Shown: one piece after another, positions 1 to 10,149 of the stretch
How positions within the stretch are numbered: position 1 is the first letter of the stretch
How the letters are laid out: each line of letters begins with the position of its first letter
NCBI GenBank assembly: GCA_020058965.1
Contig: JAGVCY010000244.1
Coordinates: 1 to 10,149 of the forward strand
Direction of reading: 5' to 3'
From: Candidatus Omnitrophota bacterium
GTDB lineage: Bacteria > Omnitrophota > Gorgyraeia > 2-02-FULL-51-18 > JAGOUK01
Length of the DNA: 10,149 nucleotides
Position numbers and translations under genes: made by a program
Notes under the pieces: generated by a model
Told to the model about the DNA's origin: nothing
The model's database searches: none
The model's input: the letters and a program-made list of their open reading frames with translations, nothing else

Positions 1-1387
1 CCTCCAGAGCGCCGGTCTGTCGCGTATGCCACATCGTTTTGGATTCCTGGATAGCGGGCACAAGCTCCTGAGATTCTGCACCCGAAATATCAAAGATGCG
101 GGTGGTGTGGAGCAAGCTTTTCTCACCCTCTCGCGCGTCGGCCCGTTCGACGGCCAAATACTTCGCGTCCGCGTCCAAAGACACAGACCCCCCTTGCTCC
201 AGAAGAATTCTTGCTGCCGATTCAGACCGCCAAATCCCCTTGAAGACCAGATCTTTAATTTTTTCCAACCAAGAATGCCGACGCGCGAGCTCGTTAAGAT
301 CCCACGCTTCGACCCGCGTACCATTGTTCAGTTGGCGTCCAAAAAACTCCCGTAGTTGTAATACCGCGACCAGTTTGCGCCCTCCGTCGGCGAAGTACGC
401 TTGCGCAGAATCCCAGACGGAGGTGCGGTAAAGGAGCGCCGGTTTTTTTCCGTTCCCAAGGTCATAAACGCTCAGCCCTTGTTGATCCGTCGCAGTCGGC
501 CCTTCGCCCGTTATCGCGCAAAAACGGTCATCGCCTGAAATCTCAGCTCGCATGTGCGCCCGTTGCTGGCTCAAAACCGGCTTGCTTGAATCCGTCCAAA
601 GATCATAGACATCCGCATCGCGGTCGTTCGTCGCGATCAAATACCTTCCTCTGGGCGAAAATTTGAAGGTGTGGCGCGAGTCGTAACTGCCTGTCGGAAT
701 GAATTCCTCCCCGCGGATCTCAAAGAGGTCTGTTTGGAACAGCTCGGCAGGCGCGCCCCCGACGGCCGGGCGATAAGTCACAGTCATCCACCGCCCATCT
801 GGAGAAATTTGCAGGTACTGCTCGGCGTTCCGCTCCCGCTCAATGATCGAAAGCGATAATTCCCGTCCGGTCTTAGCATCGACGAGCCGCGCGTCCGACT
901 TCATATGCGCTTTTCCGTCATAAACCCCCTGCAGGATCAAGAAGCGACTGTCCGGAGAAAATTCGATCTTCCCCGCGGCATATATTTCCTTGCTCTCCGC
1001 GCTCTCCGTCACGCCGGGCAGATCGAATAGCCTAATTCGGTCCGTCCGCGCGTCCTTGACTACGACCCTCCGGCCGTCCGGAGAAAAATGCGCCTTGGAA
1101 TTTATATTGATTCTCATAATCCGCCGCCCATTGGTGAGGTCGACCAGATCTTCTTTCTTCTCTCCGGGGCTCGTCGTAGAACTGCCAGGCATTAGTTCAA
1201 TCAGTCCCGGCTTGTCCCTACTGGTCACCCACTGATATCTCCCATCCCGCGATAACGACCCTTCATTTCCATCAAATACAGCTTCTTCGCCGTCCCCCAG
1301 TCTGACAGCCGTCACCGCCCCCCGATCCACCTCGTCCCACGACACCTCTCCCTCTCGCGCCACCCCCGCCTCCGCCATCCTCGCCCC
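1..1387 (-). repeat. GARMA module 4, cut by the window edge (residues 2586 to at least 3047)
   Basis: It opens with GARMA at 1373-1387, then a Trp motif (EVSWDEVDRGAV) and propeller turns SRDGRYQ, SPDGRRV, SPDSRFL, SPDGRWM, SPRGRYL and a degenerate SGDDRFC. A likely counterpart of the NGDxTLVT block reads FADGGRKLVAV. The window ends inside the propeller region, so it cannot be seen whether a helical domain and further modules follow. Its sequence is clearly divergent from modules 2 and 3. Confidence 0.7.
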
Positions 1388-4300
1388 GGATTCCACTGCA
1401 ATTTTTGGCGCTGCGTACAAGTCCATCAGAACCTTAAGTTCCGTTTCCGCGGATATCCCGAGGTCGGATTTATTGGTGCCCGCGATCCGAATCCCAAACA
1501 TTTTGATAAATTCGGTCAGTCCGTCCAGAAGTGATTGTCCGGATTCTCTGCGCGCTTCCACATCATGAACGGCATTAAAGTCCTTATGAAAACCTGCCAG
1601 CATGTCCGCCGGATCCGCCGCGTGGAGGGAGATCATGTCGAACAAGAAAACCGCATGCCCCAGCATTTTCGCGCGGCCAGCCGGCCCCGTCTCAGCAGGC
1701 GTATGATCCGCGATCTGATCCAGAACGATCTGGGCGACTTCAAGCGTTCTCGATTTTTGATTCTCGTCAGCCGCGGACACCGCCTGATAGAGCATCAGGA
1801 ACACCTCAAGCTCCGCCTCCGCCATCCATTTGGGATGTTTTTTAAAAAATTCGGTATCGGCCATTTCTTGGACGAGACGATCCGGATCGATCTGAAGAAT
1901 GCTCTTTAGAGCATTCGCCGGTCCCGCCCCCTGTTTAAAAATGATGCGCGTACTCTCGTGATTAATTTCGGTCGAAAGCGTGTTCCATGTCGCCAAGCCG
2001 ACCTTTGATCTTCCGTCCGCTCCTTTTCGGATTACAAGGTTAAGATTTTTTCCCTTGGGAAGATTCACCACCCGAAGCACGGAAGACTTTGCAAGCCAGG
2101 CAAAGCTCTCGATGCGCTCGTTAGCGGTCTCAAATAAAGTCGGTGCTGATTGTTGAGTCAAGTCCACAACTCGCAGACTGAAGCGATTGGGAATACTTTT
2201 ACGGGCATTTTTGTATCCCTTTGCGTAAGCCATGCAGCTGCCGTCGGCCGTCACCCTTGCGCGCAATGGATCCAATCCGTCGGTATTAAAATGGCCTTCG
2301 TCCAGCCAATAGGGCCGCTTTGGCAGCCACCGTCTTACAAAGCTCATCGGGCCTCGGTGCAGCAGTGCCCCCAAATGATAAGCAGATAGTTTCCCTTGAT
2401 AAGCGGTGACCAGCGTCTCGTCTCCATTCGCAAACCCGACAAAGTCATGACCTTTTAGATCGATAATTTTTTTAAAGCCGCCGGTCCGCCGCATCTGATA
2501 GACCCGTAAATGGTCTTTGCCCCATAACCCGCCTTTGCCTTTAACAGCCACAAGCGCTCCCTGCGACCCAAACCAGATGGACTCAACGCCCTTCCGCCTA
2601 AAGACCGGGGATTGATAGTCGTCGCTCGAGTAGATTTCCGCATCATGACTCTTGGTGTGGTTAAGCAGCATGGACAAAAATCGGCCATCCGACGACCAGG
2701 TTGGTCCAATCTTGGTGCTGATGAATCGCTTTTTTAGTTCCGCTACACCGTCAGCCCTGAATTCATAAACGCTGCATTCTTCGAACGCACTGCTCGAATT
2801 TTTGACATAAAATTGCCGGCTGTCCGGAGAAAAGTTAAAGCTATTGTTCTCTCCTTTCAACATCCAGGCAACGATATCATTCGGGCCTTCCAAAAAGTGG
2901 ATCCATCGTTTGTTGCGAAGATCATAAATATATAAAAAACCGGGACCGGCGATACCCAGCAAACTTCCGTCAGCTGAAAATTTTACAACCTGTCCATGTA
3001 TCGGAAGGTCAGTCGTATCTCCGGTCAATAAATTAAATATTTTTCCCGATCCTAAGCCGGCAACCGAATGATACTTCACCGCCACCCGGCTGTCGGGAGA
3101 AAACAGCACGCTTCCCCGTCGCGGACCCATATCGAAGAGCACCGGCGGCCGCTCACCCTCTCGATCCACGATGGAAAAGGTCGTGGAGATTTTAGAACTT
3201 TTTTCGAGGACAAATCTACCGTCCGGAGAAGCCGGTCTGAGTGCCCCTTTTTCTTCGTCGTACTGACCGAGACCATGGTCCGTGGCCACCCGGCCCGCCA
3301 GATCACTCCAACCGTTCAGATCCAATCTTCCTCGACCGGCCATCCTCGCCCCCAGGTTCGCGGGCGGCGGGGTTGTTTGCGGGTCTTGATCACCGGGCTC
3401 CCATTTAGCGGTCGGTTGGGTCACAGTCTTGTGCCCTTGATATCTTTTTATCAGGGAAGTTAATAGGGCTGTGGATGATGAGCCGTCCTCAGAACTGGTC
3501 GACCCCGCCGCCGCAGTCCAGAATGTTTTGATAAAACCGGTCAGGCCTTCCAACAGCGGTTGCCCGGAAAGCTTCCGCGCCTCCTGGCTATAGACGGCTC
3601 TGAATTCCTTATGAAATCCTGCCAGCATGTCCGCCGGATTGGCCGCGTGGCGGGAGATCGTCTCAAATACGAATCTCGCGTGCGCCAGCATGATGGCTCT
3701 TCCGGCCGCTCCCGTCTCGGCGGGTGTGTAGTCCGCGATCTGATCTAAGACTATTTGAGCGGTCTCAAGCGTCGCGGCTTTTTGCTTCTCATCGGCCGCG
3801 GCCACCGCCTGCTGGAGCATGAGGAACACCTCCAGCGTTGCTTCTCCGTACCAATCAGGGTGTTTTTGGAAGAATGGGAGGGAGCGCATAGAATCGATTA
3901 AGGCATCGGGATTAACCAAGAATACGCCCACACGATCCTGTGCTACAGAACGGCCGGACCCTTCCCCTCTCTTGATAATGATCCTTGCGCCGTCTCCGTC
4001 AAACGCGGCAGTCGAATCAACCTCCAAATTCATGGAGACCTTCGCCTTCCCGCTGTCGTCGCGACGGATCAGAAGGTTTGTCGCTGCCCCTTCGCCGTCC
4101 TCCATCTGCAACACCGGGGCTTTTTCTTTCCATTTAATTGCATCTATTTTTCTCTTCACGATGGCGATCGGCTGGGTGGAATCAAGCCGAGCGAGATCGA
4201 CGATTCGGATCTCGTCGGCAGAGCGATTATCCGATTCAAGAGCGCTGTAGGCGAGGTGTTCTCCGTCGGCGGATATCTTCGCCGTAAGCGGATCGTTAAG

Positions 4301-7300
4301 TCCGGAGTCAAACAGACCGCGGCCACGCCATAACGGCTTTGGATTAAAATACCCAACCGGTATCCAGCGAGCCATTCGGCCCCAAATCCCCTTGTCCGGC
4401 GCTGGCAATGGATGGGCATAAATGGTTCCTGACGCTTCATAGGTGACAAGCGTCTTGTCACCGTTTCCAAATCCGATAAGCTCGCGATCTTTTAGATGAA
4501 GGCTCTCTTTGACGCTACGGTCTGGGCGCAATTCATAGACCCGCACCGATCGAGTGCTGCCCATTAAACGACCGACAAAAAGTCCGATCGAAAAAAGCAT
4601 CTTTTTGGTGTTTACTGCTACTATCGGTTCCTTCGATCCGAATCTAAATCTCCCGACATTTTTTTTGACCAAAACTGGGCGTCTCAGATTGTTGGCGGCA
4701 TAGATCTCGAGGGTGCCGTCGCCATCATCAAGAGCGCTTTTTTTTGCCAAAAACTCACCGTCCGCGGACCACTCACATACGATCTTTGACCCCCCAAACC
4801 GCCGACTCAGCGTTGCCCGCCCATCGCTCCTAATCCTATAAACACTGATAGTATCGGACTCAGCACTTATTGAAGTTTGAACAAAAACATATCTGCCGTT
4901 CGGCGAGATCTTGAATTGGTCATTAGGGCAATAAAGGGTTTCTGTCGATGCGCCCTTCTCCACAAATTTAAACCACCGATTGTTTCGAATATCATAAATT
5001 CCAAAATTTCCATTCCCGGCGAGCGCCACCAAAGCTCCGTCCGCCGAATATTGAATTTTTCTCCCTTGTAAAAATCGGCTGTCTGTATTGCCGCTCAAGA
5101 GATCGATCAATAAAACCGAACGCTCGCCGCCCTTTTCCTGCACCACGGCCGTCTTGCTATCCGGCGAAAAAGTAACCTTGCCTTTGACTAAAGCATCTAA
5201 AGAGATGGGTCTAGCGGGCAGCTCCCCGCTCAAATCCACGATCGACCCCCCAAATTCCCTTCTATCCGCGTTATACGCGACCACAAATCGCCCGTCCGGC
5301 GAAGCCGCCCCGGCGCGCCGATCCAGATCCTCATATTTGGCCGGATCAAGACTCTGCGCAACCTTTCCTTCCAATCCTTCCCATTCCACCAAGCTCAACT
5401 TCCGTTCCTTCCCACCCGCCGGTGCCGCCATCCGTGCTCCGGCGCTTACTTGGATCAGGGCGCTCTCAAGGTCTTCCTGAGCTCTTTGGGCCATTATTTT
5501 TCCATCAGGCCCCAAGCGCTCGATGCTACTGATGACATAGTCGGGCAACGCTTCCATTGCCAAATCGAACTTTTGAGCCGGCGACGCTCTCCTAAAATTT
5601 AAATAAGTTATAAGCGTCTTATGAACGCCTTCCAGCATATCCAGGGGCTTAAGCCCTGCCCGAGCAACTTCCGGCCGCGTCGTTTCTTCGACCATCCATT
5701 CGAGGATTTCGATCATTTGTATTCTTTTCTTCCGCGCGGACGCTCCTGCGGTCTTTGGAGTCAGGTCCATCGCCAATAGCAATACTCTTTCCATCAGATT
5801 AAAAGCTTCTTGTTTGTTGCGCTCGCTCTCTACGCCCCGCAAAACGGCCCGCATCATCCCGTAGACCTTAAAAGCCGACCCGCCGAGCCATTCGGGATGT
5901 TCTTGATAGACCCGCATCCGCGACATCAGATCCACGATGCTCTTCGTGCTGATCCGCTCTTCTCGGGTTGACCCGGTCGGGCCGTCGGATATCCGCATAA
6001 AGTTTCCGTCTTTCGTAAAATGACAAGATTCCTCCCACGACATGATCGGATCGATCTGAATGGGCGTTCCGTTTTGATCAAACCGGTAATGCCGCTCATT
6101 AGCGGGTCCGCCCACCAAATGGATAGTGATCACTGATCCGTCCTGATTCCATTCAAATTTAGCAACATGGGAAAGCCGCAGAACGACAGAGGCGCGATAA
6201 CGGCCCAGGTTCCATAAAATAAAATTTTTTGCGCCTTTATTTATGAGCGCCTGGATGGGCATCATGGAAACGATCTGACGCCCGCTAGGCGATACCTTCA
6301 TCTCCTCTGAAATTCTCTTCTCATCAAAATCTTTCGAAAAGATAACCCTGTCGGGGTTTGTACGACTCAAGACATGGACATATCTAGACCCCTTCAGCAG
6401 GGCGATGGCATCTCCTCCGTTCATCCATCTCAATAATTTACCCGAACTGCTCAAGGCCGGTTTTTTCAATATGCCCGCATCGGTCAATTTGAGGATACGG
6501 ATACGCTCGTTGTGGGTTTGGATCGCGACTTCTTTCCGCGTTGGTGAAAAGATGTATTTATGCACATAGGCCAGCTTATAAATTGGATGAGTCGGCGAGG
6601 TTGATCGGTATATTTTTAATGTTCCAGAGCGCGTCTCCGTCATTCCGAAATATTTTCCATCGCTCGACCACTGAAAATGGTCGAAGCCCATAAAATATGT
6701 CACGAGATTTGCTTGGCTTCCATCCAGCGAATACAGATAGATTGCGCTCACATCGCCTAAGACTCTTCTTGTGATCGAAAGCATTTTTCCATCAGGAGAG
6801 ATCTGATGCTTGAGAGCGCGATCTAAAACAACCGTCTTATCGTGCCCCTGTCTATTATCTTTAAACACAACCTCCGCTTTACCCGCCAGGTCATAAAGTT
6901 GAAAGTTATCGGATGCGCTGATCGCGGACGCGTACCGGCTGTCAGGCGAAAAAACCAGCTCGTCACGCGGGATCCTTTTTTTGCCCATAGTTTTGATCAA
7001 CTTCTTTTGTAGCAGATCCACGATACGGACCGGATCATCTTGATTCCCAGTCCTATTCGTCACCTCCGTGATTGCGGCATATTTACCGTCTGGTGATATT
7101 TCCAATGGAAGGATGCTTGAATCCGCCACGCTAACCGGGATTCGCCTATCCGGTCTTTCAAGGTCTACCAAATAAAAAAATTCTCTCCAAGCTTTGGCTA
7201 TGACATACCTACCGTCCTCCGAGGCGTGTCCCTTTTCCAAACTGAGGGTCAAATCGCGTGCTTTATCATGATCCAATTTTTGAGCATAAAATTCCCGCAC

Positions 7301-9142
7301 CTCTTCCCGATCGAACCTCTCCCACTCCTCGAATGTCAGAGCCGCCCGCGCCTCCGGTTTTTTCGGCTCGCGGCGAGTCACCGACCGAGTTGGCTGTGCC
7401 GACTTCCCGGCCATCCTCGCTCCGGCGCCGGGATGGGCTTCGACGAGCGCTCGCGCCGCTTTGGACAGATCTGATGAATCGCCCGGATAGCGGGCGGCAA
7501 AACGGGCGGCGGCCGGATGGATCGGTTGGCCGGCGGCGCCCCGTCGAACTTCGCCCACGCCGACCTGTCTGAGAAGGGATGGCTTGGCGCCAAGCCCGGC
7601 GCCGGATCCGTGCGGGATTGGCGCGAGAAGATTTTTTTCATAAACGGCCGGATCGGTCTCATAAGTCACCTTCGGTGCGATCACCGCGTAGGACAGGTCC
7701 TTCGCCCGAAGCATCCGCATCATGCGGTCGGTGTGATAGCCTCCCGCGATCACGAACACCGCGCGGCTCGGGTTTTTTTGGATCTCCTGCCAGATCCGGC
7801 CCACGAACTGTCGGTCGCGTTTGCGCGCGAGTTCGTAAAACTTCCGTAGATGCCATTCGGCCGCTCGCAAACTCCGGGCCCTCGGCAACAACCGTTCAGT
7901 GAGTCCGATTTTTAAAAGCTCCGCGTTCAAAAACGCCTGCCACGAATCGATCGGCGCCAACACCCGCGCACGATCGAGAGCCCCAAATTCCTCGGAAGAA
8001 AGCTGAATCCGACTTCCGCCCTTGAGAAGTCCGAGATAACGGTCCACCGCGTGCAGGGTCTTGAGTTCCGCGCGACCCTTCAAATATTTTTCGGTCAACG
8101 CTTCTTGGGCCGAAAGCATTTGGGCCTGCACTTCGCGCCAGCCGACCTGTGACAAGCTTTTGAGTTGCAAACGATAAAGATTGAGCGAGGGGTAATGTTT
8201 TTTTTCAGATGCCGGAACGGCGGCCATAAGCGTCTCGATAAACCCGAGTTGCTCGGTGGGATCCTCGGCCTTCGCGGAGCGCTGAGCCAAGTCCCGAAGT
8301 CTCGCTCCGTCGGTTCCTGCGCGGCCTATCAAAACTTCCATCTCGCGATTCATCGCATCGAACGAAAACGCGGACTCCCGTCCCAAAAGCCTCACGACGC
8401 TCTCGAGCTCCGCGTACTGCGTCTCGCCAGCCATCGTCGGGTCCGCATGAAGTGCTTTGAGAAGGACCTCGATTTTTTTGATCTCGTTCGCATCTTTAAG
8501 CTGGCGTTCAAGCTCGAGAAGCTCTTTGGGGTATGAGCGGCTCTTCAGCGCTTCAACCGCTTGTGTGGCGCGGGTGATCTCGACCCCGGCTTTCTCGCGC
8601 ACCCGAGCCAGCCGCGCGTATTCCGCGAGACTTGCGTCATAGAGCCGTGCGTCCTCGATTCCAATAAGCTCTAAGGGCTCGGCGCTTGTGAGGTTTTGGA
8701 ATTCTTCACCCGAGATCACACCGTCCGCCAGGAAGCGCTTGGCTGCGCGGTCCCACGAAATTTCCGGATGAGCCGCCTTGATGCCGTCGAGCGAAACAAT
8801 ACCCGAACTCCCCTCAACCAGCGCCGTGCGGATCCCGTATGCCTTTGAAAGCCGCTCGAGCGTCTCTGCCAGATTTTTTTGAGCGTCGGGATTGGCGTGA
8901 GCGTCCTGAAGGTGGATCACGAGGCCCCGGTCATTGGAGCCGGTGTAAACTTCCTGAAGTTTTTCGGTGCGGAGCGCTTGTCCCAAAAGCTCCGGCGACC
9001 TCACCAGCTCGGGGAGCCGTGCGGACGCCAATTGAATTTTTTTCACATGCGTCGGCCGCGGCTCGTCCGCCCAGGCAGACTGCGTCAGCGATTGAAGCAA
9101 AAAAATTGCCGCTATAATTCCAGAAATGACTTTTTTAGCCAT
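1..9142 (-). CDS. Giant exported modular protein: TIKI/TraB-like head plus tandem GARMA/beta-propeller/helical modules (3' end outside window)
   Basis: One reading frame stays open for 3047 codons and leaves the window without a stop, so the protein exceeds about 330 kDa. The ATG at 9140-9142 is chosen because it opens a clean signal peptide; the ATG four bases upstream is out of frame and stops after three codons. No strong Shine-Dalgarno is visible. Order: signal peptide 1-25; TraB/TIKI/ChaN-like domain about 45-500 (His82, Glu110, His470); linker about 500-573; four modules starting with GARMA at 574, 1235, 1931 and 2586. Each module has PD40/TolB-like turns (SPDG, SPDS, SADG), and modules 1-3 end in a helical domain. 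I count only six cysteines, which suits an exported protein. It follows pheT after 154 bases and probably has its own promoter. The propellers suggest protein or polymer binding and the head might be enzymatic; both are inference. I do not know a named family with this architecture. Confidence 0.92.
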   Translation of the reverse strand, partial: MAKKVISGIIAAIFLLQSLTQSAWADEPRPTHVKKIQLASARLPELVRSPELLGQALRTEKLQEVYTGSNDRGLVIHLQDAHANPDAQKNLAETLERLSKAYGIRTALVEGSSGIVSLDGIKAAHPEISWDRAAKRFLADGVISGEEFQNLTSAEPLELIGIEDARLYDASLAEYARLARVREKAGVEITRATQAVEALKSRSYPKELLELERQLKDANEIKKIEVLLKALHADPTMAGETQYAELESVVRLLGRESAFSFDAMNREMEVLIGRAGTDGARLRDLAQRSAKAEDPTEQLGFIETLMAAVPASEKKHYPSLNLYRLQLKSLSQVGWREVQAQMLSAQEALTEKYLKGRAELKTLHAVDRYLGLLKGGSRIQLSSEEFGALDRARVLAPIDSWQAFLNAELLKIGLTERLLPRARSLRAAEWHLRKFYELARKRDRQFVGRIWQEIQKNPSRAVFVIAGGYHTDRMMRMLRAKDLSYAVIAPKVTYETDPAVYEKNLLAPIPHGSGAGLGAKPSLLRQVGVGEVRRGAAGQPIHPAAARFAARYPGDSSDLSKAARALVEAHPGAGARMAGKSAQPTRSVTRREPKKPEARAALTFEEWERFDREEVREFYAQKLDHDKARDLTLSLEKGHASEDGRYVIAKAWREFFYLVDLERPDRRIPVSVADSSILPLEISPDGKYAAITEVTNRTGNQDDPVRIVDLLQKKLIKTMGKKRIPRDELVFSPDSRYASAISASDNFQLYDLAGKAEVVFKDNRQGHDKTVVLDRALKHQISPDGKMLSITRRVLGDVSAIYLYSLDGSQANLVTYFMGFDHFQWSSDGKYFGMTETRSGTLKIYRSTSPTHPIYKLAYVHKYIFSPTRKEVAIQTHNERIRILKLTDAGILKKPALSSSGKLLRWMNGGDAIALLKGSRYVHVLSRTNPDRVIFSKDFDEKRISEEMKVSPSGRQIVSMMPIQALINKGAKNFILWNLGRYRASVVLRLSHVAKFEWNQDGSVITIHLVGGPANERHYRFDQNGTPIQIDPIMSWEESCHFTKDGNFMRISDGPTGSTREERISTKSIVDLMSRMRVYQEHPEWLGGSAFKVYGMMRAVLRGVESERNKQEAFNLMERVLLLAMDLTPKTAGASARKKRIQMIEILEWMVEETTRPEVARAGLKPLDMLEGVHKTLITYLNFRRASPAQKFDLAMEALPDYVISSIERLGPDGKIMAQRAQEDLESALIQVSAGARMAAPAGGKERKLSLVEWEGLEGKVAQSLDPAKYEDLDRRAGAASPDGRFVVAYNADRREFGGSIVDLSGELPARPISLDALVKGKVTFSPDSKTAVVQEKGGERSVLLIDLLSGNTDSRFLQGRKIQYSADGALVALAGNGNFGIYDIRNNRWFKFVEKGASTETLYCPNDQFKISPNGRYVFVQTSISAESDTISVYRIRSDGRATLSRRFGGSKIVCEWSADGEFLAKKSALDDGDGTLEIYAANNLRRPVLVKKNVGRFRFGSKEPIVAVNTKKMLFSIGLFVGRLMGSTRSVRVYELRPDRSVKESLHLKDRELIGFGNGDKTLVTYEASGTIYAHPLPAPDKGIWGRMARWIPVGYFNPKPLWRGRGLFDSGLNDPLTAKISADGEHLAYSALESDNRSADEIRIVDLARLDSTQPIAIVKRKIDAIKWKEKAPVLQMEDGEGAATNLLIRRDDSGKAKVSMNLEVDSTAAFDGDGARIIIKRGEGSGRSVAQDRVGVFLVNPDALIDSMRSLPFFQKHPDWYGEATLEVFLMLQQAVAAADEKQKAATLETAQIVLDQIADYTPAETGAAGRAIMLAHARFVFETISRHAANPADMLAGFHKEFRAVYSQEARKLSGQPLLEGLTGFIKTFWTAAAGSTSSEDGSSSTALLTSLIKRYQGHKTVTQPTAKWEPGDQDPQTTPPPANLGARMAGRGRLDLNGWSDLAGRVATDHGLGQYDEEKGALRPASPDGRFVLEKSSKISTTFSIVDREGERPPVLFDMGPRRGSVLFSPDSRVAVKYHSVAGLGSGKIFNLLTGDTTDLPIHGQVVKFSADGSLLGIAGPGFLYIYDLRNKRWIHFLEGPNDIVAWMLKGENNSFNFSPDSRQFYVKNSSSAFEECSVYEFRADGVAELKKRFISTKIGPTWSSDGRFLSMLLNHTKSHDAEIYSSDDYQSPVFRRKGVESIWFGSQGALVAVKGKGGLWGKDHLRVYQMRRTGGFKKIIDLKGHDFVGFANGDETLVTAYQGKLSAYHLGALLHRGPMSFVRRWLPKRPYWLDEGHFNTDGLDPLRARVTADGSCMAYAKGYKNARKSIPNRFSLRVVDLTQQSAPTLFETANERIESFAWLAKSSVLRVVNLPKGKNLNLVIRKGADGRSKVGLATWNTLSTEINHESTRIIFKQGAGPANALKSILQIDPDRLVQEMADTEFFKKHPKWMAEAELEVFLMLYQAVSAADENQKSRTLEVAQIVLDQIADHTPAETGPAGRAKMLGHAVFLFDMISLHAADPADMLAGFHKDFNAVHDVEARRESGQSLLDGLTEFIKMFGIRIAGTNKSDLGISAETELKVLMDLYAAPKIAVESGARMAEAGVAREGEVSWDEVDRGAVTAVRLGDGEEAVFDGNEGSLSRDGRYQWVTSRDKPGLIELMPGSSTTSPGEKKEDLVDLTNGRRIMRININSKAHFSPDGRRVVVKDARTDRIRLFDLPGVTESAESKEIYAAGKIEFSPDSRFLILQGVYDGKAHMKSDARLVDAKTGRELSLSIIERERNAEQYLQISPDGRWMTVTYRPAVGGAPAELFQTDLFEIRGEEFIPTGSYDSRHTFKFSPRGRYLIATNDRDADVYDLWTDSSKPVLSQQRAHMRAEISGDDRFCAITGEGPTATDQQGLSVYDLGNGKKPALLYRTSVWDSAQAYFADGGRKLVAVLQLREFFGRQLNNGTRVEAWDLNELARRHSWLEKIKDLVFKGIWRSESAARILLEQGGSVSLDADAKYLAVERADAREGEKSLLHTTRIFDISGAESQELVPAIQESKTMWHTRQTGALE
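1388..3352 (-). repeat. GARMA module 3 (residues 1931-2585)
   Basis: It opens with GARMA at 3338-3352, then a Trp motif (LDLNGWSDLAGRVA) and a propeller-like region with SPDGRFV, SPDSRVA, SADGSLL, SPDSRQF, SSDGRFL and TADGSCM turns. These align in order with module 2: IYDLRNKRW against IYDIRNNRW, and FANGDETLVT against FGNGDKTLVT. Its helical domain (1496-1885) is a gapless partner of the one in module 2. The tail (about residues 2550-2585) is shorter and less Ser/Thr/Pro-rich than that of module 2. Confidence 0.8.
1496..1885 (-). repeat. Helical domain copy B (end of module 3, 130 residues)
   Basis: This is the second member of the pair with 3521-3910, the same length and offset by exactly 2025 bases. 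It has FFKKHPKW, LEVFLMLYQAV, LDQIADHTPAETG, DMLAGFHK and LTEFIKMF. Changes against copy A are spread out and keep hydrophobic spacing, which suggests both copies still fold. Confidence 0.82.
3353..5440 (-). repeat. GARMA module 2 (residues 1235-1930)
   Basis: It opens with GARMA at 5426-5440, then a Trp motif (LSLVEWEGLEGKVA) and a propeller-like region with SPDGRFV, SPDSKTA, SADGALV, SPNGRYV, SADGEFL and SADGEHL turns. A hallmark GNGDKTLVT lies near 4441-4470. The helical domain (3521-3910) contains KHPDW, LDQIADYTPAETG and DMLAGFHK. A Ser/Thr/Pro-rich tail (about 3355-3520) links to module 3. At 696 residues it is the longest unit, mostly because of that tail and a basic loop (IWGRMARWIP) near 4370. 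Confidence 0.8.
3521..3910 (-). repeat. Helical domain copy A (end of module 2, 130 residues)
   Basis: This is the first member of a closely similar pair with 1496-1885. It is predicted helical throughout, with FFQKHPDW, LEVFLMLQQAV, LDQIADYTPAETG, DMLAGFHK and LTGFIKTF. By hand count about 90 of 130 residues match copy B with no gaps. The best-conserved stretch, 3607-3639, differs from 1582-1614 at one base in 33. No known fold is recognised. Confidence 0.82.
5441..7423 (-). repeat. GARMA module 1 (residues 574-1234)
   Basis: The module opens with GARMA at 7409-7423, then a basic, proline-containing stretch and a Trp motif (LTFEEWERF). A beta-rich region follows with at least eight turns of the SPDG type: SEDGRYV, SPDGKYA, SPDSRYA, SPDGKML, SSDGKYF, SPTRKEV, SPSGRQI and TKDGNFM. 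This spacing fits PD40/WD40-like propeller blades. It ends with a helical domain from about 5945 carrying EHPEW and DMLEGVHK. This is the most divergent of the complete modules: its helical part aligns with modules 2 and 3 only at landmark residues, which suggests it split off before modules 2 and 3 duplicated. Confidence 0.75.
5443..5945 (-). repeat. Divergent helical domain (end of module 1)
   Basis: It shares landmarks with copies A and B in the same order: EHPEW, a MMRAV segment, MDLTPKTAG with following basic residues, and DMLEGVHK. It lacks close sequence identity and has a different C-terminal tail (about residues 1185-1234) rich in Glu, Ala and Leu, probably an extra helix before the next GARMA. 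Confidence 0.65.
7424..7640 (-). other. Low-complexity linker between head domain and first GARMA module (residues about 501-573)
   Basis: After the last strand of the head domain the protein becomes rich in Ala, Gly, Pro and Arg (for example GSGAGLGAKP and HPAAARFAARYPG), with little predicted secondary structure. It contains a short helix-like segment (SDLSKAARALVEAHP) immediately before the first GARMA. It is probably a flexible tether that separates the head from the propeller series. Confidence 0.55.
7640..9010 (-). other. TraB/TIKI/ChaN-like domain with a long helical insert (residues about 45-500)
   Basis: Three blocks match the scheme of the TIKI/TraB/ChaN/erythromycin-esterase-like superfamily. 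An N-terminal beta strand is followed by LQDAHANPDAQ, with His82 where the family has its first GExH or GxxH. A second strand carries LVEGSSG with Glu110. A late strand ends in VIAGGYHTD, where GGYH is the C-terminal GxxH and holds His470. Between about residues 140 and 440 lies a charged, mostly alpha-helical region rich in Glu, Arg, Leu and Lys, far longer than in short ChaN-like proteins. Family members bind haem or metal, or act as proteases or esterases. The key His and Glu are kept here, so activity is possible but unproven. I recall QDAHxN proteins of this kind from Omnitrophota and related phyla, without a known function. Confidence 0.6.
9068..9142 (-). other. Sec signal peptide of the giant protein (residues 1-25)
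   Basis: The N-terminus has two lysines at residues 3-4, a hydrophobic core (VISGIIAAIFLL, residues 5-16), a polar stretch, and an Ala-Trp-Ala ending before Asp26. This is a textbook signal peptidase I site (A-x-A, cut after residue 25). No lipobox cysteine is present, so the mature protein should be released to the periplasm or beyond rather than lipid-anchored. It also decides the start codon, because no later start keeps the full n-region and hydrophobic core. Confidence 0.85.
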
Positions 9143-9296: not shown

Positions 9297-10149
9297 TTAC
9301 TGGCGAAGTTCGATCGAAAATGCCTGGCGGAGGCCTTCGACGGCGGAGGCATGGAGCCCCTGGATCTCATCATCCGTGAAGGTGCCGTCGGGCTTCTGAT
9401 ATTGGAGCGAAAACGCAAGACTGCGTTTGTCCTTGGGAATGTTTTTTCCTTCATACAGGTCAAAAAGCTGAACGCGCGTCAGCCGCTCGCCGGCGGCGGT
9501 CCGAAGAGCGCTTTCGATCTGACCGATCGAAATGTCGCGGTTGATGAGAAAAGCGATGTCCCGCCGCGCGGACGGGAATTTGGGAAGTTCGGCAAATTTA
9601 CGCGCGACACGCGGCATCTTCAAAAGGTCGTCCAGAAGGATCTCCGCCGCGAACACCGGCTGCAAAATGTCCCAGCCCTTTAGCGCTTCGTCCGACACGC
9701 GGCCCACATGCGTCATCCTGAACCCCATGGGCCCTTCAAGCACCAGCGTCTGGTTAAAAGTCCCCGGCCACACCTCCGCTTCCTTCCACTCCGGCATCTT
9801 CCGACCCGCCGCCTTAAAAATATTTTCCACCAATCCTTTTAAATAAAAAAATCCCGCATCCTGGCGCGCCGCCCAATTCCTCATCCATTCCCCCGTCACC
9901 GCCAGCGCCAACACCTCTTCCTCGTGTCCTTGATAAAATCTCCGCGACACTTCAAAAAAAGCGAGGTCCTTTTCTTTGCGATTTAGATTGTGGCGTATCG
10001 CTCCCAAAAGTCCGACAAGCGCGGTCGGCCGCAGCACTTCCTGCTCCTGGCTCAAAGGATTTTTGATCCGAAGAATCGCCTTATCCTTCGGAAACGCCAT
10101 CCGCTCCAGATCCTCCGCCGACACCATGCTAAAAGTAACTGTTTCCCAC
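9297..10149 (-). CDS. pheT: Phenylalanyl-tRNA synthetase beta subunit, C-terminal part (5' end outside window)
   Basis: This subunit works in the cytoplasmic alpha2-beta2 enzyme that charges tRNA-Phe. The frame is open at the right edge and ends at TAA 9297-9299; 283 complete codons are visible of a protein that usually has about 800 residues. The first visible residues (WETVTFSMVSAEDL) match the VxTYSFV start of the beta-subunit catalytic-like domain. RIKNPLSQEQEVLRPT and LLGAIRHNLNR follow, then FFEVSRRF, the FEIGxxF block. The last 95 or so residues form the anticodon-binding FDX-ACB domain, with KFPSARRDIAFLINRD, VQLFDLYEGKNIP, KSLAF-type RSLAFSLQYQ and the final TDDEI motif. It looks intact in the visible part. 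The internal ATG at 10125-10127 is not a start, because the homologous frame continues upstream. An upstream pheS is expected but not seen. Confidence 0.96.
   Translation of the reverse strand, partial: WETVTFSMVSAEDLERMAFPKDKAILRIKNPLSQEQEVLRPTALVGLLGAIRHNLNRKEKDLAFFEVSRRFYQGHEEEVLALAVTGEWMRNWAARQDAGFFYLKGLVENIFKAAGRKMPEWKEAEVWPGTFNQTLVLEGPMGFRMTHVGRVSDEALKGWDILQPVFAAEILLDDLLKMPRVARKFAELPKFPSARRDIAFLINRDISIGQIESALRTAAGERLTRVQLFDLYEGKNIPKDKRSLAFSLQYQKPDGTFTDDEIQGLHASAVEGLRQAFSIELRQ

Follow-up and report, generated by a model that had tools for sequence, protein, structure and literature searches.

Giant open reading frames (ORFs) are common in Omnitrophota, contain few annotated domains and are poorly conserved according to the available part of PMC10066038, and their role is open, partly because so few domains are recognised. 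In the accessible sections of two further papers, gigantic Omnitrophota proteins are reported to carry methylases, peptidases and other domains, with roles against prey proposed (PMC12419801), and the post-transcriptional integrity of such giant proteins is called unclear (PMC12057145). A comparison outside the phylum is with the MARTX toxins, in which one large exported protein holds several independent modules, and some of which carry the TIKI-family endopeptidase module RRSP (PMC6254334). According to the available text of that paper, ChaN, Bcr135 and HopBA1 belong to the TIKI superfamily, and the essential residues of RRSP are Glu-x-His, Glu and His (PMC6254334).

Like the Velamenicoccus coat protein and the other giants of PMC10066038, the ORF analysed here comes from Omnitrophota and is a very long single ORF with few annotated domains. 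The available part of that paper does not mention a separator peptide, a shared head or a shared tail, and our literature searches, which returned sources in part, found no description of the GARMA motif or of a separator peptide; other literature may describe it. Giant Omnitrophota ORFs as such are already known, and it is their architecture of head, border peptide and tail that we did not find described in the accessible literature. Sequence comparison identifies [GA]AR[ML][AST] as a protein-level boundary peptide between independent modules in giants of one Omnitrophota order. A fixed border peptide provides a parsing rule, by which giants can be split into units of ordinary size to be annotated, folded and expressed singly, and it makes the question of whether they are polyproteins testable by mass spectrometry.

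Layout of the giant ORF and its propeller modules

The window, which is the whole stretch of 10,149 nucleotides analysed, is a single contig (C120) of a fragmented genome (1.68 Mb, 72% complete). Its giant ORF encodes a signal-like stretch, then a head domain and then four modules, each opened by GARMA:

9297-10127, minus strand: pheT, 3' part
2-9142, minus strand: giant ORF with 3047 aa visible; its 3' end lies outside the contig
9068-9142, minus strand: signal-peptide-like N-terminus (residues 1-25) with A-W-A at its end, as judged by eye
7607-9025, minus strand: TIKI/EreA/ChaN-like head domain, about residues 40-512 (~470 residues), with D80-x-H82, E110 and H470
7409-7423, minus strand: GARMA 1 (residue 574)
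5426-5440, minus strand: GARMA 2 (residue 1235)
3338-3352, minus strand: GARMA 3 (residue 1931)
1373-1387, minus strand: GARMA 4 (residue 2586)
5441-7423, minus strand: module 1, propeller plus helical domain, 23% identical to module 2
3353-5440, minus strand: module 2, propeller plus helical domain; ends of the model of low confidence (disordered)
1388-3352, minus strand: module 3, 39% identical to module 2 along almost the entire module
2-1387, minus strand: module 4, propeller-like, weak similarity, truncated by the contig end

Shuffling the window protein 5000 times gave 20 GARMA in total and never more than one per shuffle, so that four copies are not due to chance. The preliminary description of this DNA had noted the four peptides, a Trp after each, and HPxW and DMLxGxHK in three of the modules. 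All of these are present in the minus-strand ORF: the Trp follows at a variable distance (+33, +19, +14 and +16), HPxW lies at residues 1082, 1761 and 2436, and DMLxGxHK at residues 1168, 1838 and 2513. The duplicated propeller-plus-helix block of about 2 kb is also there. The alignment of modules 2 and 3 begins exactly at GARMA and has 39% identity in 688 columns; modules 1 and 2 are 23% identical, helical domain included, and module 4 has only weak propeller similarity to the others.

The window modules have a beta-propeller fold and in this part resemble TolB/PD40 and eIF3b/DPP4-type propellers, from which they differ by the attached helical domain and the GARMA borders. The TolB equivalog TIGR02800 scores 39.9 bits against a cut-off of 343 bits, which leaves the window ORF outside that family. 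Among Pfam and NCBIfam families none spans the propeller-plus-helix module, matches being limited to propeller models. Relatives of the modules outside the window ORF were found neither in the 59 genomes of the class (own genome included; word/pattern-filtered search), nor in a GTDB contig scan using one pattern set, nor at E 0.001 in a protein search filtered by words and patterns. The suggestion of a seemingly undescribed unit is therefore upheld for the module, which has no covering Pfam or NCBIfam family and no detected relatives, and fails for GARMA, which is not its component. A structure prediction of module 2 has low-confidence ends that include GARMA, in line with a boundary peptide.

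Distribution and sequence rule of the peptide

Searched as a degenerate DNA pattern, GARMA occurs at 39 places in the source genome, against 2 for the reversed pattern. Every one of the 39 lies in an open frame (one in an ORF of 467 aa, the other 38 in ORFs of 800 aa or more), and the sequence after the sites mostly differs from one to the next. The preliminary description had read GARMA as part of a tandem propeller-helix repeat unit, as the single order of elements shared by modules 1-3 would suggest. Elsewhere in the genome and the order the same peptide separates unrelated modules, and this reading, refuted by the module families described below and by the sequences after the 39 sites, is practically untenable. 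Its claim that the GARMA sites are domain borders survives insofar as they are module borders, without being specific to the propeller-helix repeat.

Among the 59 class genomes (own included), GARMA is strongly above control in about eight genomes of the order, for instance 31 vs 2 in G001, 14 vs 1 in G004, 18 vs 1 in G006, 12 vs 0 in G007 and 11 vs 0 in G015. The excess is absent in G002, G005, G010, G012, G013 and G014 of the same order, and none of the 43 class genomes outside the order has more than three GARMA places. G005 and G013 have mainly GARLA. As a DNA pattern GARLA is clearly above its reversed control genome-wide only in G003, G009, G013 and G015, and not in G000 or G005.

We compared pentapeptide counts with those expected from dipeptide frequencies in a set of 69 ORFs no shorter than 800 aa, drawn from eight genomes and totalling 177,395 aa, whose loci had been picked because they contain GARMA. 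GARMA itself is present 123 times (0.54 expected), GARLA 100 times (1.39 expected) and AARLA 74 times (2.27 expected); the class [GA]AR[ML]A has 327 copies and its reverse two. The order-wide form, [GA]AR[ML][AST], was counted in 122 sampled ORFs (500 aa or longer, selected by the motif or QDAH), 115 of which hold 657 copies between them. In the GARMA-selected ORFs Arg is nearly invariant, and the fourth position is Leu (174) or Met (153) vs only two Val. The last position of the motif is Ala more often than Ser and Ser more often than Thr (last position and flanks counted in the 73 of 84 ORFs that have the motif). Loci of G004 also hold 12 copies of GARAA, in which the fourth residue is Ala.

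Evidence for a border between modules

Edge tests and the cutting of ORFs into modules used a looser pattern, [GA]AR[MLFIA][ASTG]. The 69 ORFs yield 419 modules, 304 of which have no relative in the set; there are 38 families with at least two members, and some of them recur in different ORFs with differing neighbours. Internal modules have a median length of 300 aa (quartiles 205 and 459, n = 313). The strict motif is absent from 21 Pfam stretches (13 in seven ORFs of the source genome and eight in three ORFs of other genomes), one of which, CheR in L206, holds AARAA, a match to the looser pattern only. It is likewise absent from 97 head envelopes (E up to 1e-5) and from a head set widened to 108 by weak pieces and a 10-residue margin.

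Homology between segments also tends to begin and end at the peptide. Outside the heads (53 segments, from the set of 122 ORFs), 22 of 103 homology starts lie within 8 aa of a motif (5.0 expected), as do 22 of 91 ends (4.1 expected), and only 12 of 106 homology sides cross a motif, against 50.7 expected. With heads included, ends keep the excess (236 of 1351 vs 50.4 expected) and starts do not (12 vs 13.0); it is with head domains excluded that both are in excess. Pro, Ser and Thr are frequent in the flanks of the motif, and hydrophobic residues are scarce there. Spacing of the motif is no more regular than random (54 spacings below 60 aa, 66 expected). In 16 of 57 ORFs with a complete 3' end the last motif is at most 27 aa from the stop, where nothing as large as a module is left to be separated, and a plain separator does not explain these copies.

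Constraint on the peptide rather than on the DNA

In the eight genomes first sampled the codons of the motif are biased towards G[GC]C GCG CGG NTG GCG, the preferred synonymous codons being GCC at the first position, GCG at the second and CGG for Arg. Dipeptide context does not account for this bias, and a DNA element was first inferred from it, that is, a recombination or cassette site that is read through in frame and shuffles modules. Such an element would also suit flanks that share almost no sequence and module families that recur with other neighbours in different ORFs. The exact consensus occurs at 138 places in the 16 genomes of the order, vs 2 for the reversed pattern. Of the 136 distinct copies, however, 134 are read in frame 0 within open stretches of 250 aa or more, and no copy has GTG. 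A codon bias of similar size is found at the conserved head residues of these ORFs, and other codons are preferred in G005. The frame test and the head-residue control together point to constraint on the peptide, and the codon bias requires no DNA element. The candidate was removed on these two grounds; it is largely refuted, and we regard it as very improbable.

Nor does codon identity within genomes depart much from that between them (0.496 and 0.446 at the first position, less or similar at the other positions). At one locus of G007 (L240, G007:C23:25392-25583) two consensus copies lie 177 bp apart on opposite strands, and the plus-strand copy is one of only two of the 136 outside a long frame-0 stretch.

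The fourth codon is dominated by ATG, CTG and TTG, as might be expected if translation also began internally at the sites or if they were left over from gene fusions (R-ATG-GC). Against this, GTG, a common start codon, is absent at the fourth position, the residues before it are fixed at the amino-acid level, and Leu without a start-like codon is also found, which makes such an origin extremely unlikely.

A shared TIKI/EreA/ChaN-like head

Matches to the head occur in 42 of the 59 genomes (own included), with up to 35 per genome; the open frames that carry them reach 10,727 aa. A scan of GTDB gave at least 474 head relatives, the best 80 of which are all Omnitrophota, Omnitrophica or Omnitrophus. 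Where the 5' end is complete, ORFs with two or more motifs almost always have a head near the start (44 of 45). Heads without the motif lead giant ORFs outside the order, and also in G002 of the same family; the head alone thus does not require the motif. When the whole ORF was used in a protein search, nine giant proteins were recovered whose similarity to it is confined to the head, two with several GARLA or AARLA, one with a single GARLA and six without the motif.

The head has the alpha/beta core fold of the TIKI/EreA/ChaN superfamily. Its model has a pLDDT of 84, and a second aligner groups it with ChaN, EreC, Bcr135 (3b55) and HopBA1; ChaN and EreC rank first, but an unrelated chain ties with some of the placed relatives. 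Foldseek alone returned nothing below 0.001 with the head model, and a PDB sequence search with the head profile gave two chance-level matches. The Pfam ChaN family (PF04187) matches 7 of 25 heads at E up to 0.1 (best 0.0003), and the window head scores 15.5 bits against its cut-off of 27.7, which makes the head at best a remote ChaN member.

In the 25 heads H82, E110 and H470 are invariant and D80 is kept in at least 90%. As judged from the alignment, the head appears to carry the 2His/2acid set (acid-x-His, 28 residues to Glu, later His), and the step of 28 residues from H82 to E110 equals that from 3902 to 3930 in RRSP. In a wider, unfiltered scan for Q[DEN]xH, 47 of the 81 places have Glu at precisely this distance. 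The head therefore resembles the EreA/ChaN/TIKI superfamily in fold, in the acid-x-H, E and H positions and in the 28-residue step from His to Glu, and differs by a long helical stretch between its halves, by Asp in most heads where the superfamily has Glu, and by its place at the N-terminus of giants.

Possible export signals and a conserved tail

By a loose signal-peptide test, 41 of the 44 head ORFs with a complete 5' end and two or more motifs have a hydrophobic 12-residue window before the head core followed by a small-x-small site. Exported proteins are expected to be low in Cys, which makes up 0.14% of residues in giants of at least 1000 aa compared with 1.0% in 270 other ORFs from these loci.

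Complete ORFs with two or more motifs mostly end in [AS]A-COOH (14 of 18), as do 26 of 33 ORFs with head and motif, compared with 9 of the 171 other ORFs that reach 500 aa. Long head ORFs without the motif end in [AGST][VLI] in 10 of 16 cases, and a small residue followed by V or L is a frequent ending among long head ORFs of other lineages. All nine giant relatives from the protein search end in Ala, eight of them in [AS]A; since six of the nine lack the motif, the tail is not tied to it. A 115-residue tail profile, built from 40 tails selected for an [AS]A ending, so that its matches are nearly circular, recovered 42 ORF ends: 36 training ORFs, three second copies and three new ones (L191 of G002, L053 and L089). 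In 41 of these the match ends precisely on the final residue, and in the other it stops one residue earlier.

T9SS CTD and PEP-CTERM are known C-terminal sorting domains, and proteins that carry them resemble the giants in combining a signal-like N-terminus with a conserved C-terminal domain. Sixteen tails of other ORFs gave no convincing match in NCBIfam or Pfam, only single weak ones (best E 0.021), and in this the giants differ from T9SS CTD and PEP-CTERM proteins. The conserved tails, such as those of L205, L208 and L178, may represent a new C-terminal sorting signal. Unlike the giants, shorter head ORFs (500-999 aa, in several loci) that lack the motif often have an acidic C-terminal residue, Glu in 12 of 25 cases.

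Polyproteins or intact chains

The presence of the boundary peptide in dozens of giant, probably exported, proteins suggests bacterial polyproteins that are cut into pieces. We put at about 0.5 the probability that the giants are exported modular polyproteins with the boundary peptide as a putative proteolytic site, and that the window ORF is one such, in which case it would carry three or four propeller modules. The giants would be exported by Sec as polyproteins, and a protease would cut at or next to the peptide, most simply at R[ML]/[AST] (the slash marking the cut), where an unbranched hydrophobic residue precedes a small one. Cutting would set the modules free, either outside the cytoplasm or inside a partner cell. 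The giants differ from MARTX toxins in their signal-like N-terminus and in the conserved pentapeptide at the borders, and their cleavage is a proposal drawn from sequence. Neither a cysteine protease domain nor RTX repeats were reported up to E 0.1 in the 3047 aa visible of the window ORF.

The head is a candidate in-cis protease, since a sequence-specific endopeptidase belongs to its superfamily and the head's own catalytic positions are conserved; the presence of heads without the motif elsewhere weakens this candidacy. A more complete scheme, in which one lineage would pack dozens of unrelated proteins into giant Sec-exported chains, the TIKI-type head would cut these in cis at the pentapeptide, the [AS]A tail would sort the chain and modules would be swappable between chains, seems doubtful to us.

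A tail-specific protease of the S41 type was rejected as the general cutter, as Peptidase_S41 was not found in 9 of the 16 genomes of the order (several incomplete).

The residue rule with its fixed Arg reads like a protease site, and a docking site would have much the same appearance. The peptide might instead be an uncut hinge or a docking linker for a chaperone, a surface partner or an assembly factor, with the giants persisting as intact surface coats, a role proposed for one Omnitrophota giant in the available part of PMC10066038. This explains the strict residues, the border position, the flexible flanks and the near-stop copies as well as or better than cleavage does; however, modules of whole-enzyme size and mixed chemistry fit separate proteins better, and we consider an uncut linker rather unlikely. 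Against the polyprotein reading count the copies near the stop, the irregular spacing, the heads without the motif and the genomes in which Peptidase_S41 was not found. The uneven distribution of the peptide at DNA level also counts against it, GARLA being clearly above control genome-wide in only four genomes and GARMA missing from six genomes of the order. Modules of cytoplasmic type (HPr, PPDK, sigma-70 region 4, CheR) are odd in such polyproteins and count against a periplasmic product.

Module contents

Recognised modules include HPr, PPDK, NUDIX, PALP, sigma-70 region 4, DnaJ, VWA, glycosyltransferases, CheR and other methyltransferases. In L006 a sigma-70 region 4 module (residues 1629-1677) lies between two GARMA sites 161 aa apart. 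H-A-R-P, which we take to be the HPr active-site signature, stands at residue 2548 of L011, inside the HPr module, and at residue 3226 of L012, about 240 residues before the best HPr stretch, where a second HPr stretch was reported; these cytoplasmic-type modules may thus be intact. The end of L011 (contig C254) and the start of L012 (C269) have an identical 26 aa in common, and the two are therefore probably one ORF of about 6,800 aa.
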